Assembly (NCBI RefSeq): GCF_001654495.1
Contig: NZ_CP015849.1
Span: forward strand, 992,001-1,056,000
DNA length: 64,000 nucleotides
Source of the DNA: Streptomyces sp. SAT1
GTDB taxonomy: Bacteria > Actinomycetota > Actinomycetes > Streptomycetales > Streptomycetaceae
Direction of reading: 5' to 3'
Shown here: one piece after another, positions 51,239 to 58,107 of the stretch
Position numbering within the stretch: the first letter of the stretch is position 1
Layout: every line of letters begins with the position of its first letter
The notes under the pieces: generated by a model
What the model was told of the DNA's origin: nothing
The model's input: the letters and a program-made list of their open reading frames with translations, nothing else
Database searches by the model: none
Made by a program: the position numbers and the translations under genes

Positions 51239-52759
51239 TCAGCCCAGGGGCACCGGCTCCGGAAGGCCCACCGGCCAGGTGTGCACCGGCTCGCCCAGCC
51301 GCATCAGCTCGCAGTAGCGCCGGGTCGTGGCCGCCAGCGCCGCCTCCCGGTCCAGGCCCTGCTCCTCGCGGGCCCGGTGGTAGGTGTCGGCCTGCCAGCG
51401 GGCGCCGTTGGTCCGGCGCCGGCAGCGCTCCTCGATCACACCGAGGTAGCGGTCCCGGTCCGCCGGCTCCACGCCCCAGGAGTCCAGCCCGGCCGCGGCG
51501 AGCGGCAGCAACTCGTCGCGTACGAGGGTGACGGCGTCGGTCTCGGCCGTACCCGAGGCACGGCCCCGCCGCGGCCAGGTGAACCGGGCGTCGATGCCGT
51601 GCCGGCAGGCCGCGTCGAAGTTGGCCGCCGCCGCCTCGAAGGGCAGCCGGGTCCACACCGGCCGCGGCTCCTCCGCGAGGGCCCGCACCAGCCCGTAGTA
51701 GAAGACGGCGTTGGCGACCACGTCCGTGACGGTCGGCCCGGCGGGCAGGACGCGGTTCTCCACGCGCAGGTGCGGCACCCCGTCCGCGACGTCGTAGACG
51801 GGGCGGTTCCAGCGGTAGACGGTGCCGTTGTGCAGGACCAGCTCGGCGAGTTTCGGCACGCCGCCGGCGTCGAGCACGTCGAGCGGGTCCTCCTCGTCGC
51901 AGATCGGCAGCAGCGCCGGGTAGTAGCGCAGGTTCTCCTCGAACAGGTCGTACGCCGAGGTGACCCAGCGCTCGCCGAACCAGGTGCGCGGGCGGACCCC
52001 CTGCGCCTGGAGCTCGGGCGGGCGGGTGTCGGTGGACTGCTGGAACAGGGGCGGGCGCGACTCGCGCCACAGCTCGCGCCCGAACAGGAACGGGGAGTTG
52101 GCGCCGACGGCGATCTGCGCGGCGCTGGCCGCCTGCGCGGCGTTCCACACGTCCGCGAACCGCCCGGGGGTGACCTGGAGGTGGAGCTGCACGGAGGTGC
52201 AGGCGGCCTCCGGGACGATGGACTTCGAGGTGCAGACGAGATGTTCCACCCCGTCGATGTCCAGGGAGAAGTCCTCGCCGCGGGCGGCGACGATCTGGTC
52301 GTTGAGCAGGGCGTAGCGGTCGACGTCGGAGAGGTTCGAGGAGACCAGGTCGTCCCGGTCGAGGGTCGGCAGAATACCGATCATCGCGATCGAGGCGTCC
52401 ACCTCCCCGGCTTTCCGGTCGGCATATGCCAACGATGTCGTCAGTTCCTCCGCGAGACGGTCGAATACCCGGCCGCCCAGCCGGTGCGGGGCGATGTTGA
52501 CTTCGAGGTTGAACATCGCGAGTTCCGTCTGGAAGTCCCGGCTCGCGATGCGCTCCAGTACTTGCGCATTCAGCATTTTCGGCATCCCGTCGGAGCCGAC
52601 GAGATTCAATTCGATCTCCAGCCCCATGAGGTTCTTGGGGCGGTCGAACCGCTTCTCCTCCAGCAACCGCTCCAGCCCCTTCAGGCATCGCCTGAGCTTG
52701 TCGCGGTAGCGGTTGCGATCGGACAGGTCGAACTGGCCTGCCACGACCTTCTCCCCCAT
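51239..52759 (-). CDS. GCS2-family glutamate-cysteine ligase-like protein
   Basis: 506 residues from the ATG at 52759, behind a weak site. The glutamate-cysteine ligase fold is supported by LMGLEIELNLVGSDG (metal-binding Glu pair, residues about 44-58), ELAMFNLEVNIAPH, TSVQLHLQVTP and RPPLFQQSTDTRPP, in the GCS2/YbdK order. Streptomycetes make mycothiol rather than glutathione, so the true product may be another gamma-glutamyl compound. It is not the shorter EgtA of ergothioneine synthesis by length. Single gene with a 550-base upstream region. Confidence 0.8.
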   Translation of the reverse strand: MGEKVVAGQFDLSDRNRYRDKLRRCLKGLERLLEEKRFDRPKNLMGLEIELNLVGSDGMPKMLNAQVLERIASRDFQTELAMFNLEVNIAPHRLGGRVFDRLAEELTTSLAYADRKAGEVDASIAMIGILPTLDRDDLVSSNLSDVDRYALLNDQIVAARGEDFSLDIDGVEHLVCTSKSIVPEAACTSVQLHLQVTPGRFADVWNAAQAASAAQIAVGANSPFLFGRELWRESRPPLFQQSTDTRPPELQAQGVRPRTWFGERWVTSAYDLFEENLRYYPALLPICDEEDPLDVLDAGGVPKLAELVLHNGTVYRWNRPVYDVADGVPHLRVENRVLPAGPTVTDVVANAVFYYGLVRALAEEPRPVWTRLPFEAAAANFDAACRHGIDARFTWPRRGRASGTAETDAVTLVRDELLPLAAAGLDSWGVEPADRDRYLGVIEERCRRRTNGARWQADTYHRAREEQGLDREAALAATTRRYCELMRLGEPVHTWPVGLPEPVPLG

Positions 52760-53315
52760 CGCAGCGTCCTTCCTCGCTCGGGCGGGCCCGATGCTCCGGC
52801 CGCCTGGGTCCTGGTCAGGTGGGATGATGCCCCGCCAACGCGATCGATAACGTCCCGTCGCGGCCCGGCACCGACTACGCTTGTCTCCTGTGTCCACAGG
52901 CACATTCACGCGGCATGAAGCACCCGGTTGTATCGGGTGCCCCTGAGAAGTCGTGAAAAACGCCGACGACAACGAGCCGTCCACCGAATCGGCATCACCC
53001 GAGGTCATCGCGGCGCGGTCCGCCGAGAACCGGGATGTTTCCCGCATATCACCGGCCGAATGAACCCTTGTCGCCCCTGCCGGAAACAGGTAGACGAAAC
53101 AACACCAGAACATGTGTCGTATAAACTCGGCACCACGGCAGAAGGTCGGCGTCCATGACCCTGGACCCGTCGTCAGGGTCAAGCGGCAGGCCGCGCTCCG
53201 TCACCCCGTTCACCGGAAACCCCGGCTGCGCCACCCTGCCCCGAGAGCTGACAGCGCCGTCCGCCCCCGCCCCGCCCTCGCGCCACCGTGCCTGTCGAAT
53301 GAGAGGCGACCCACC
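52760..53315. other. Long intergenic region, promoter of divergent genes
   Basis: 556 bases without a supportable gene. The left part (to about 52920) is the upstream region of the GCS2 gene; the right contains a locally AT-rich stretch, AGAACATGTGTCG-TATAAAC (53108-53126), where TATAAA at 53120-53125 could be a -10 box for the gene starting at 53316. Frames crossing it lack codon bias. Confidence 0.55.
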
Positions 53316-54232: not shown

Positions 54233-54439
54233 ATGTGCCAGCACCAGACACCGTGTCCGTCAGCCGACTCCGCCGACCGGGAGTCCGCCCGTCTCGTGGC
54301 GCACCACCCGGAGCAGGGCTGGAGCCTGCTGTGCAACGGCGTGCTCCTCTTCGAGGACACCGGTGAGCTGCTGCCGGACGGGCAGATCATCGCCCCGCAC
54401 CGCCCGCTGGGCACCGACCGGGTGATGACCGCGGCCTGA
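54233..54439 (+). CDS. DUF5999 family small protein
   Basis: 68 residues from the ATG at 54233 (MCQHQTPCPSADSAD). The sequence REAA-like ESARLVAHHPEQGWSLLCNGVLLFEDTGELLPDGQ is the DUF5999 signature, common in streptomycetes. Three cysteines and several histidines near the N-terminus (CQHQTPC) could bind a metal. An alternative start at 54158 has a stronger ribosome site and would give 93 residues. Function unknown. Confidence 0.9.
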   Translation: MCQHQTPCPSADSADRESARLVAHHPEQGWSLLCNGVLLFEDTGELLPDGQIIAPHRPLGTDRVMTAA

Positions 54440-54514
54440 GCACGACGGGCGGCTCCGTCACACGGACCGCCCGCCCACCACGGGGCCGGGACGCACACGC
54501 CCGTGCGGCCCGGC

Positions 54515-55110
54515 TCTCGCGCGCCTCACCACGGGCGGGCTGTGCTCGAACCAGTCGAACGCCGCACCGGACCGATGCGTGCCGTCACGCTCGCCGTCCC
54601 CCGCAGACTCCCGGTCGTAGTGGTGCGCCTCGTCCAGGCACACGGACAGTCCGGCCCGGCCCGAGCCCATGTCGAGCCGGGCCACCATAGGGCGCTCCGG
54701 GCGCCGCTCCCGGCGGCCGACGAAGGCGTCGCCGGGCCGGTCGAGGCTGTCGCCGGTCGCGGTCAGCGTCAGCCACCCCGGGCGGCGACCGAGCGACCAG
54801 GAGTCGTCCGGTCTGCCGCGCGGGGGGAGCCACCGCGGTGCGAGCGCGGGCCCGTCGAAGTCGTCGCGGGCCGGTTCGGGCGGCAGCGGGTGCCAGGCGG
54901 CGAGGGCCGGGCGCCGCTCGCGGACCGGGTCGGCCCGCGGACGGCCGTCCACCCACTCGACGGGCACCAGGAAGGTCCCCCGGCCCAGCACATGGAACTC
55001 GGGAACTCGGGGAAGTACCCGCGCGGACGCGTCCCCGGCAGCACCATCCACCAGGTCCCGTCCGCCGCCCGCACCAGGTCGCCGTGGCCGGTGCACCGGA
55101 CGGACAGGTC
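54515..55110 (-). pseudogene. Decayed GH43 glycosidase (beta-xylosidase type)
   Basis: The remnant reads in order, switching frames: VRCTGHGDLVRAADGTWWMVLPGTRPRGYFPEF (frame A, ending about 55003), then FHVLGRGTFLVPVEWVDG, DDFDGPALAPRW, GWLTLTATGDSLDRPGDAFVGRRE and SVCLDEAHHYD (frame B), then GTASVTARIGPVRR in a third frame. These are the end of the five-blade propeller and the C-terminal beta-sandwich of family 43. The first shift is caused by a perfect 8-base tandem duplication, GAACTCGG, at 54995-55010. The N-terminal propeller is missing. No intact start exists. Confidence 0.85.
54995..55010. repeat. 8-base tandem duplication inside GH43 remnant
   Basis: GAACTCGG twice without a gap. Removal of one copy restores the reading frame from GYFPEF to HVLGRGTF. 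Confidence 0.9.
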
Positions 55111-55396
55111 CGTACCCCTTCCCTCGGACTTCCCCCAAAGATGCCGGACATTTCGCCATGGCCGGCGAATCTTGCGAAGCAACCCGCGCCGCAGGGGCGG
55201 CCCGCGGACGCGAACAAGCGACCGGCGGCGATACGCGGCGCCTGCGTGCGCGGGGCCGCGGACGGCGCACGCGGGCGGCGCACCCGGGGACCCGCCCCGA
55301 CCGGTCCGCCTGCGCGGCGTCAAGAACGGCCGACCGCACGTCAGGGCCGCGTCAAGGGGTGCGGTCCGGCGCGCGCGGGGTCCTAGCGTGGAGGTC

Positions 55397-55954
55397 ATGG
55401 GGTACGGCTACGAGACTCGGCGGGGCGTCGGCGCACCCGCGCGGCGGTCCGCGCCACCGGCGAGCGACCGCCACTGGGCCCGGGAACTGCACACCGCGCT
55501 CCGGTGCGCTGCGACGCTGCTCTGCCTGCTGCTGCTGATCGACGCGGGCACGGGCGCGCTGACCTGGTGGCGCGGGCTGCTCTGGCTCACGCTCGCGCTG
55601 CTGCTCCTCGGCGTGCTCTGTCCGCCCCGGGTGAGCGCGGGTGAGGGCTGGCTCTGCTGCCGGACGCCGCTGCGCCGCCGCCGGGTGCGCACCGACTCGC
55701 TGGTGTCGGTGCGGGTCGTGGACGGTGTCTCCCGGCGACTGGTCCTGCGGGACGCCCTCGGCGGCCGCGTCGAGATCGATCCGCGGATCCTGGTGGACAA
55801 CCCCGGCCTCTGGTACCACCTGGCGGAGGACGCGCGGACATCGGCGGCGCGCGGCCTGCTGCGCTGTGGGACGGATGCGCTGCGTGACCTTGAGGAGCGG
55901 GTGGACCGCGAGACGACACGCACCGTATTCCGGATCTCGGGCCTCGAACCCTGA
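55397..55954 (+). CDS. Two-helix membrane protein, function unknown
   Basis: 185 residues from the ATG at 55397, close behind GGAGG. Two hydrophobic segments at about 35-52 and 57-75 (LRCAATLLCLLLLIDAGTG; LLWLTLALLLLGVLC) precede a cytoplasmic domain: RVRTDSLVSVRVVDGVSRRLVLRDALGGRVEIDPRILVDNPGLWYHL. This resembles small streptomycete membrane proteins with a PH-like beta domain. No function is known. The 287 bases before it, beside the GH43 remnant, hold nothing else. Confidence 0.8.
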   Translation: MGYGYETRRGVGAPARRSAPPASDRHWARELHTALRCAATLLCLLLLIDAGTGALTWWRGLLWLTLALLLLGVLCPPRVSAGEGWLCCRTPLRRRRVRTDSLVSVRVVDGVSRRLVLRDALGGRVEIDPRILVDNPGLWYHLAEDARTSAARGLLRCGTDALRDLEERVDRETTRTVFRISGLEP

Positions 55955-56157: not shown

Positions 56158-58107
56158 ATGGCCACCACCGAGCACCCTCCCAGCCGGCTCCGCGCCTGGA
56201 TGCTGAAGGGCCTGTCCGACATGGGCAAGGGCGTGCAGCAGGGCCCGCACGCCGCGCCCGAGCCCCCGCACAAGGGGCAGCGCTGGTGGCGGGTCATGTG
56301 CCTGACCGGGGTCGACTACTTCTCCACCCTCGGCTACCAGCCGGGCATCGCGGCACTGGCCGCCGGGCTGCTCTCGCCGGTCGCCACGCTCGTCCTGGTG
56401 CTCGTCACCCTCGCGGGCGCCCTGCCGGTGTACCGCAGGGTCGCCGAGGAGAGCCCGCACGGCCAGGGTTCCATCGCGATGCTGGAGCGCCTGCTGTCGT
56501 TCTGGCAGGGCAAGCTGTTCGTGCTGACCCTGCTCGGGTTCGCCGCCACCGACTTCCTCATCACCATCACCCTGTCGGCCGCCGACGCCTCGACGCACCT
56601 GGTGGAGAACCCCCATCTGACGAACGTGCTGCACAGCCACCAGATGCTGATCACGCTGATCCTGCTGGCGCTGCTCGGCGCGGTGTTCCTCAAGGGCTTC
56701 CTGGAGGCGATCGGGGTCGCGGTGGTCCTGGTCGGCGTCTATCTGGCGCTGAACGTCGTGGTGGTCGTCTCCGGCATCTGGCACGTCGTCACCGCCGGGC
56801 ACCTGGTCACCGACTGGACGGGCGCCCTGACCGCCCAGCACGGCAGCGTCTTCGCCATGGTCGGCGTGGCCCTGCTGGTCTTCCCCAAGCTCGCGCTGGG
56901 CCTGTCCGGCTTCGAGACGGGTGTCGCCGTGATGCCGCATGTGCGCGGTGACGCCGGTGACACCGAGGAGCGGCCGACCGGCCGGATCCGGGACACCAGG
57001 AAGCTGCTCACCACGGCCGCCCTGATCATGAGCTGCTTCCTCATCGCCACCAGCTTCATCACCACGCTGCTGATCCCCGCGGCGGAGTTCAAGCCCGGCG
57101 GCGCGGCCAACGGGCGTGCGCTGGCCTACCTGGCGCACCACTACCTCGGGAACGCCTTCGGCACGGTCTACGACGTCTCGACCATCGCCATCCTGTGGTT
57201 CGCGGGTGCCTCCGCGATGGCCGGGCTGCTGAACCTGATGCCGCGCTACCTCCCCCGCTACGGCATGGCCCCGCACTGGGCCGGCGCGGTACGCCCGATG
57301 GTCCTCGTGTTCACACTGATCGCCTTCCTGGTCACCTGGATCTTCGACGCGAACGTCGACAAGCAGGGCGGCGCGTACGCGACCGGTGTGCTGGTGCTGA
57401 TCAGCTCGGCGGCCATCGCGGTGACCATCGCCGCGCACAAGGCCGGCCAGCGCGGCTGGACGGTCGGATTCGCGGTGATCTCGGCCGTGTTCCTGTACAC
57501 GACCGTGGTCAACGTCATCGAGCGTCCGGACGGCGTGAAGATCGGTGCCTGCTTCATCGCCGGGATCATCCTCGTCTCGCTGCTGTCGCGGCTGGCCCGT
57601 GCCTTCGAGCTGCGGGTGACCAGTGTGACGCTGGACCCGATGGCGGAACGTTTCGTCAGGGACATCGCCAGCCGCAAGATCCGGATCATCGCCAACGAGC
57701 CCGACCGGCGCGACAAGGCCGAGTACCGCGACAAGATCGAGCAGATCCGCTCCGACAACGACATCCCCGACACGGATGACTTCGTCTTCGCGGAGGTCAC
57801 GGTCACCGACCCGTCCGAGTTCGAGTCGGGCCTGACGGTGCGCGGCGAGGTCCTGCACGGCCGCTACCGCGTCCTGGCCCTGGAGTCGGCCTCCGTCCCC
57901 AACGCCCTGGCCGCGCTGCTCCTGCGCATCCGCGACATGACGGACCGCACCCCGCACATCTACTTCGAGTGGACCGAGGGCAACCCCTTCCACAACTTCC
58001 TGCGCTTCTTCCTCTTCGGGCAGGGCGAGGTCGCCCCGGTCACCCGCGAGGTGCTGCGCGAGGCCGAACCGGACCCGGCCCGGCGCCCCCGCGTCCACAC
58101 CGGATGA
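56158..58107 (+). CDS. APC-superfamily amino acid permease
   Basis: 649 residues from the ATG at 56158, with GGAGC ahead. Twelve hydrophobic segments (about residues 45-490), beginning [20 protein letters not shown] and including [29 protein letters not shown] and [19 protein letters not shown]. The C-terminal 150 residues are soluble ([37 protein letters not shown]), a domain also seen in APC-like transporters of actinobacteria. It probably imports amino acids or polyamines; potassium transport of the KUP type is less likely. Single gene. Confidence 0.85.

Follow-up and report, generated by a model that had tools for sequence, protein, structure and literature searches.

The window analysed here, a stretch of 64,000 nucleotides from Streptomyces sp. 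SAT1, carries on its minus strand, at about 54531-55118, what its sequence marks almost certainly as a pseudogene, the remains of a vertically inherited GH43 beta-xylosidase/arabinofuranosidase-like gene that decayed in place. An original prediction had placed a decayed GH43 C-terminal part at 54515-55110, between two small genes. The relic and its setting hold, the small genes being a DUF5999 gene (54233-54439, plus strand) and a gene without Pfam family that starts at about 55398 (plus strand); the limits shift to about 54531-55118 for the coding remains, with a promoter and operator remnant reaching about 55218. The features of the locus and its neighbours are the following.

51239-52762, minus strand: EGT gene (GCS2-like, glutamate-cysteine-ligase-like; PF04107, 2.6e-05), used for the species tree
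54233-54439, plus strand: DUF5999 gene (PF19462, Pfam 3.5e-35), 68 aa, marking synteny on the relic's 3' side
54531-55118, minus strand: GH43 coding relic (GH43 and GH43_C2), equivalent to orthologue codons about 219-401 and about 492-499, supported by Pfam, alignment to NRRL S-340 and nhmmer
54531-54560, minus strand: surviving near-C-terminal codons (FDWFEH) and decayed gene end, the relic fading at about 54531
54561-54565, minus strand: scar of a 271-base deletion, GCGGC, single here and present as two copies 271 bases apart in S-340
54600-54608, minus strand: a pair of 1-base deletions (about 54608/54607 and 54601/54600), spaced 7 bases apart in the S-340 alignment
54994-55009, minus strand: 8-base tandem duplication found by repeat search, two perfect copies of GGAACTCG on the plus strand, shifting the frame
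55115-55130, minus strand: approximate site at which the 5' deletion has brought the leader next to about codon 219, with start codon and most of the propeller lost
55145-55155, minus strand: putative operator remnant CGAAATGTCCG, which differs from CGAAACTTTCG at three positions and aligns with the operator-like element of the relatives
55160-55218, minus strand: putative degenerate promoter region, TTGTTC ... GCAAGATTCG, recognised by its alignment to orthologue promoters
55398-55954, plus strand: small gene without Pfam family, marking synteny on the relic's 5' side
56158-58107, plus strand: conserved neighbour and syntenic marker, which we take to be an APC-type permease gene; neither Pfam nor NCBIfam gives its frame a match up to E=0.1

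A 483-codon open frame (54503-55954, plus strand) crosses the relic in antisense and continues into the small gene that starts near 55398, and an automatic gene caller could over-extend that gene accordingly.

Identity of the relic and its intact orthologue

Matches to the two domains of the parent gene lie in different frames. The GH43_C2 family (PF17851) is matched above its curated cut-off in the ORF at 54458-55339 on the minus strand (E=2.4e-10, profile positions 1-93 of 203), and a stretch of PF04616 (profile positions 234-268) is matched below threshold (E=0.017) in another frame, the minus-strand ORF at 54769-55398. A nucleotide profile built from intact orthologues matched the relic by nhmmer with E=5.6e-109 over model positions 656-1208. 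For the remnant search proposed with the original prediction, DNA comparison took the place of tBLASTn, and tblastn was run in the reverse sense, with the orthologue against the loci. The DNA search covered 295 genomes of the genus including the window's own, 265 of which matched at E<=0.001, many over short lengths; the top non-self match was Streptomyces sp. NRRL S-340 (83% identity, E=3.5e-158), and matches of about 500 bases occurred in many further genomes.

The intact orthologue expected at the same position in related species does exist. NRRL S-340 encodes a 511-residue protein with a complete PF04616 domain (residues 4-276, E=2.9e-87) followed by GH43_C2, and intact copies occupy the same chromosomal position in S. 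anandii, S. spiralis and others. In the synteny table, drawn up for 20 stretches, the common gene order is EGT, small gene, DUF5999, GH43, small gene, APC-type permease. By sequence, the nearest solved relatives of the S-340 protein are GH43 beta-xylosidases and arabinofuranosidases, including the beta-xylosidase of PDB 5z5d (matching residues 4-388, E=5.8e-113), BoGH43B of PDB 5joz (residues 2-498, E=3e-105) and BoGH43A of PDB 5jow, and the enzyme probably acted on xylo- or arabino-oligosaccharides. Compared with such GH43 plus GH43_C2 enzymes, the window copy has lost the greater part of the catalytic propeller and about half of its C2 domain, and it is not contained in a single frame. Only a tail fragment of the five-bladed propeller (PF04616) is left, in agreement with the predicted absence of the N-terminal propeller, and the relic first resembles the orthologue's coding sequence at about codon 219. 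The orthologue motifs FHPDPS, GIDPD and RDPEAPHLY, presumably the sites of the catalytic Asp, Asp and Glu, start at residues 12, 120 and 166, and all three fall within the deleted part. The window genome, a single 7.47-Mb contig with an estimated completeness of 100% in which the window occupies positions 992001-1056000, holds one GH43_C2 (PF17851) match by profile search, the relic itself, and no intact duplicate; its sole PF04616 match elsewhere (C1:299515-300366) has no GH43_C2 match.

Lesions, relaxed constraint and placement

Alignment to S-340 resolves the relic into the frame series 1-0-(2 for about 7 bases)-1-0; of the three frames originally claimed, two thus alternate, and the third is used solely for the 7 bases or so between the 1-base deletions. 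The disabling lesions, taken in order of position, start with the 5' deletion, which has removed the leader together with the first 218 or so codons, about 0.65 kb of coding DNA; the relic resumes near 55118. The 8-base tandem duplication had been foreseen as a cause of frameshift and is indeed one, its unit GGAACTCG being single-copy in the S-340 orthologue. A later indel had also been called; a frame-shifting indel does lie there, in the form of two 1-base deletions, after the second of which frame 1 resumes GTASVTARIGPVR, and the 271-base deletion, which had gone unmentioned, completes the set. The GCGGC repeats flanking the latter plausibly explain its formation. Microhomology as a deletion mechanism found no support over 31 junctions, where the mean shared length was 0.74 base against 0.91 by chance and two shared at least 4 bases; these are the junctions, among 47 deletions of at least 15 bases, whose flanks passed a match test, and the comparison is blunt, as several of the 47 are possibly alignment artefacts and the chance model leaves divergence aside. 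Stop codons are uninformative on the death of the relic, because its GC-rich DNA leaves a 293-codon frame open.

Substitutions are in excess along the relic. In a relative-rate comparison with S. spiralis, S. anandii and S. brasiliensis as outgroups, the window had accumulated 59 changes and S-340 26 over 559 sites (p=0.00045), and over six settings of outgroup and region the excess gave p values from 0.00045 to 0.045. Among the flanking controls, with L086, L113 and L033 as outgroups, EGT was even (60 against 56 changes of 1490, p=0.78), and the APC-type gene (88 against 67 of 1920, p=0.11) and DUF5999 (7 against 2 of 204, p=0.18) leaned higher in the window without reaching significance. The relic is changed at 10 of 70 residues that are invariant among 20 intact copies; when each intact copy was left out in turn, it was changed at 0 to 4 of 70-74 such residues. 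Changes at codon positions 1/2/3 numbered 13/18/28 in the window and 7/6/13 in S-340. We rejected this pattern as a proof of neutrality. Positions 1 and 2 together took 31 of 59 changes in the window and 13 of 26 in S-340; with third positions faster as well, the pattern does not by itself separate a dead from a live gene. As a rough sum with wide error, in which the window's third-position rate is treated as neutral, about 40% of the branch since S-340 would have passed without constraint.

The lesions that are small could, taken alone, be assembly errors (the 8-base duplication and the two 1-base deletions), and corrected reads would then restore an intact gene. We give almost no credence to such a sequencing or assembly artefact: read errors masking one full-length frame do not account for deletions of about 0.65 kb and 271 bases, the flanks in the one-contig assembly are collinear with those of relatives, and both the substitution excess and the changed invariant residues are spread along the relic. 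It is likewise very improbable that the remnant is a new short functional protein, for instance a sugar-binding module, made from the 293-codon frame at 54458-55339 with its truncated GH43_C2. That frame is open and its match to GH43_C2 exceeds the Pfam cut-off, but 93 of 203 profile positions are all that is left, its ends are out of frame with the orthologue or cannot be aligned to it, the start region is deleted, substitution is accelerated, and 10 of 70 invariant residues are changed; moreover, long open frames are common on both strands here, with 213 of at least 120 codons in the 64-kb window.

Decay of the inherited gene also agrees with the trees. Window and S-340 are sisters on the EGT tree (support 100/99) and are paired on a GH43 tree of 30 rows (support 100/97), and because both trees give the same pair the relic is not a foreign fragment. 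The end branches on the GH43 tree measure 0.23 for the window and 0.073 for S-340, against 0.062 and 0.058 on the EGT tree. The gene broke after the window and S-340 had separated, on the branch leading to the window alone; the dating by phylogeny that had been envisaged therefore succeeds as a placement on that branch and yields no absolute date.

The relatives' operator-like element, CGAAACTTTCG, occurs exactly in 11 of 27 upstream regions, the window's among the 27 examined, and with at most 2 mismatches in 23 of the 27; the other four are the window, L036, L038 and L128, the last with only about 30 upstream bases. At three mismatches, the window itself lacks a CGAAACTTTCG-type operator at its promoter such as would mark a BxlR regulon member. 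The accessible part of PMC4743123 gives the CGAAACTTTCG palindrome as the BxlR binding site and ties it to xylan genes, and that of PMC12772271 describes a similar motif. The motif thus suggests that the GH43 locus may have been controlled by BxlR. Like the BxlR-controlled xylan and xylobiose genes of Streptomyces, as far as the accessible text describes them, most of the GH43 copies examined are preceded by a BxlR-type candidate operator, and the full GH43 cluster shares with them a solute-binding protein, ABC permease parts and a GH10 xylanase; in the bxl cluster, by contrast, the beta-xylosidase BxlA is given as GH3 in the accessible part of PMC12772271, whereas the present locus has GH43. 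In S-340 (L032, 9280-9458) the operator-like element that aligns with the window's promoter is separated from the start codon by roughly 110 bases more than its counterparts elsewhere among the relatives, as though the leader had gained an insertion.

The same slot across the genus

We surveyed the slot at 100 loci, comprising 20 stretches from genomes hit in the DNA search and the best 80 of 584 EGT relatives (79 Streptomyces and one Kitasatospora aureofaciens). Loci with EGT or DUF5999 missing in the stretch were dropped (L043, L082, L083, L089, L093, L099, L114, L121 and L157), as were duplicates (L032, L034, L037, L040, L044 and L051), which left 86 rows with the window. At one dropped locus, L082 (S. 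triticisoli), a GH43 C-terminal match lies at the contig end (11-193). By nhmmer profile and frame test, the GH43 gene was intact in 20 of the 86 syntenic rows, decayed in 16, untraceable in 23, meaning no GH43 trace within a complete interval, and unresolved in 27; as the 20 stretches had been chosen for their GH43 matches, these proportions are not those of the genus. Open-frame coverage was abandoned as sole criterion of intactness, GC-rich frames staying open through frameshifts: L151 had been scored intact by frame coverage, yet tblastn splits its GH43 into two frames. Hand re-scoring moved L151 to decayed and L132, cut by the stretch end, to unresolved, and kept L128 and L142, with the gene near the stretch end, as intact. 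The decayed rows are then the window, L033, L035, L047, L048, L049, L094, L109, L110, L116, L130, L137, L151, L154, L158 and L160, among which L094, L109, L110 and L160 were scored from short matches, the best reaching 64, 99, 60 and 35 bits, and L049 is doubtful, its propeller being nearly whole and chiefly the C2 part deleted.

Two of these rows merit separate mention. In L047 (G159:C1, about 1576065-1577025) a segment of about 86-97 bases is inverted between two kept segments, with deletions in addition, which we read as an in-place inversion during decay. L049 (G177:C63) and L132 (NRRL S-981) are near-identical by EGT and differ at GH43: L049 has lost most of C2 from an otherwise open 363-codon frame, L132 keeps C2 as far as its stretch shows, and in L049 the deletion could be very young, or the shortened enzyme could still be at work.

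On the EGT tree the decayed label requires 13 changes, all 13 forced by well-supported branches, when unresolved and traceless rows are taken as not decayed and this one-gene tree is accepted; the scatter is barely below that of shuffled labels (mean 14.8, with 47 of 500 shuffles as low). Intact against decayed alone takes 11 changes, and intact against decayed or traceless 14. Four well-supported sister pairs join a broken to an intact copy (window and S-340, S. cellostaticus and G033, GESEQ-35 and G022, G159 and YS415). GH43 appears to have disappeared on several separate occasions within the genus. The scattered states might instead be a patchwork of transfers in which recombination at the locus moved broken and intact copies about. 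Streptomyces do recombine, intact, decayed and absent states are interleaved on the EGT tree (33 changes for four labels), that tree was built on one gene, and the deeper parts of the GH43 tree are weakly supported. We nonetheless consider a patchwork unlikely, given that lesions differ between decayed copies and that in the window's clade the GH43 and EGT trees agree, with S-340 and the window together, S. spiralis next, and S. anandii and G279 in the same clade.

Separate losses would have struck a gene that has company: in many relatives the slot holds a xylan cluster of GH43, sugar ABC importer and GH10. Genes for a solute-binding protein and an ABC permease come after GH43 in L126 and L042, and the GH10 xylanase of L126 was identified by Pfam. 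With the importer scored as kept when the solute-binding protein and both permease queries were covered at 0.9 or more, it is kept in 8 of 20 intact, 11 of 16 decayed and 13 of 23 traceless rows; GH43 is thus decayed or gone in 24 of the 32 scorable rows that keep the importer, and in 22 of those 24 the GH10 coverage is at least 0.75, in a few cases over two frames. S-340 and S. anandii have GH43 without importer or GH10 matches, and S. spiralis has a GH10 match. In L151 and L125 the cluster GH10 is partly broken or truncated (0.36 coverage in two frames and 0.14 coverage, respectively), and there the xylanase decays too.

As to why the gene may have become expendable, a profile search of the window genome found no GH10 or GH11 match. 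Lost use of xylan is at best a partial explanation and was set aside as a full one: of 16 genomes checked, chosen for holding hits and not at random, three have neither GH10 nor GH11, and two of these, G106 and G172, keep an intact GH43, so that GH43 loss is not predicted by missing xylanases. Redundancy is a plain explanation in G159, G049, G177 and G262, big genomes with decayed copies and 17-21 GH43 matches each, fragments included; it is less so in the window's genome, with its one other GH43.

Proposed history and significance

The window's ancestor may have carried the whole xylan-utilisation cluster, of which the relic would be the last member remaining at this site. After the split from the NRRL S-340 lineage the enzyme would have become dispensable and selection would have lapsed, loss of use probably coming first. 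Ordinary mutation would then have brought the 5' deletion of about 0.65 kb, the 8-base duplication, the two 1-base deletions, the 271-base deletion and many substitutions, and the relic presumably makes no product. Orthology, position, lesions, faster substitution, changed conserved residues and an intact sister copy are all directly observed.

Taken by itself, the relic is an ordinary pseudogene, if an unusually clear one; the many-stage series is mildly interesting. In papers on pseudogenes, gene decay and loss, and on the operator and its regulator, judged by titles and the beginnings of abstracts, we found nothing that describes this locus, and of 12 pseudogene papers judged by the same measure, 8 were on symbionts or pathogens. 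The pseudogenes of Salmonella, in the accessible part of PMC2916853, are likewise broken genes removed by deletion; the present case differs in that a single orthologous gene can be followed through many decay stages within one genus.

A stronger reading, which we put forward only tentatively and regard as rather doubtful, is that Streptomyces have shed GH43 repeatedly and independently while keeping the importer and usually GH10. If true, this would point to a recurring selective shift instead of chance loss, candidates being the import of xylo-oligosaccharides whole instead of split, or replacement by redundant GH43 paralogues, and the locus would amount to a natural experiment, run in replicate, on the way a bacterial operon dies and the order in which its parts go. 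In the 86 rows of one genus, one gene between the same flanking markers is found in states that range from whole through freshly broken and heavily eroded to gone, and the decay series would permit the measurement of deletion spectra and rates of decay in soil bacteria, as well as of the order in which operons are lost.
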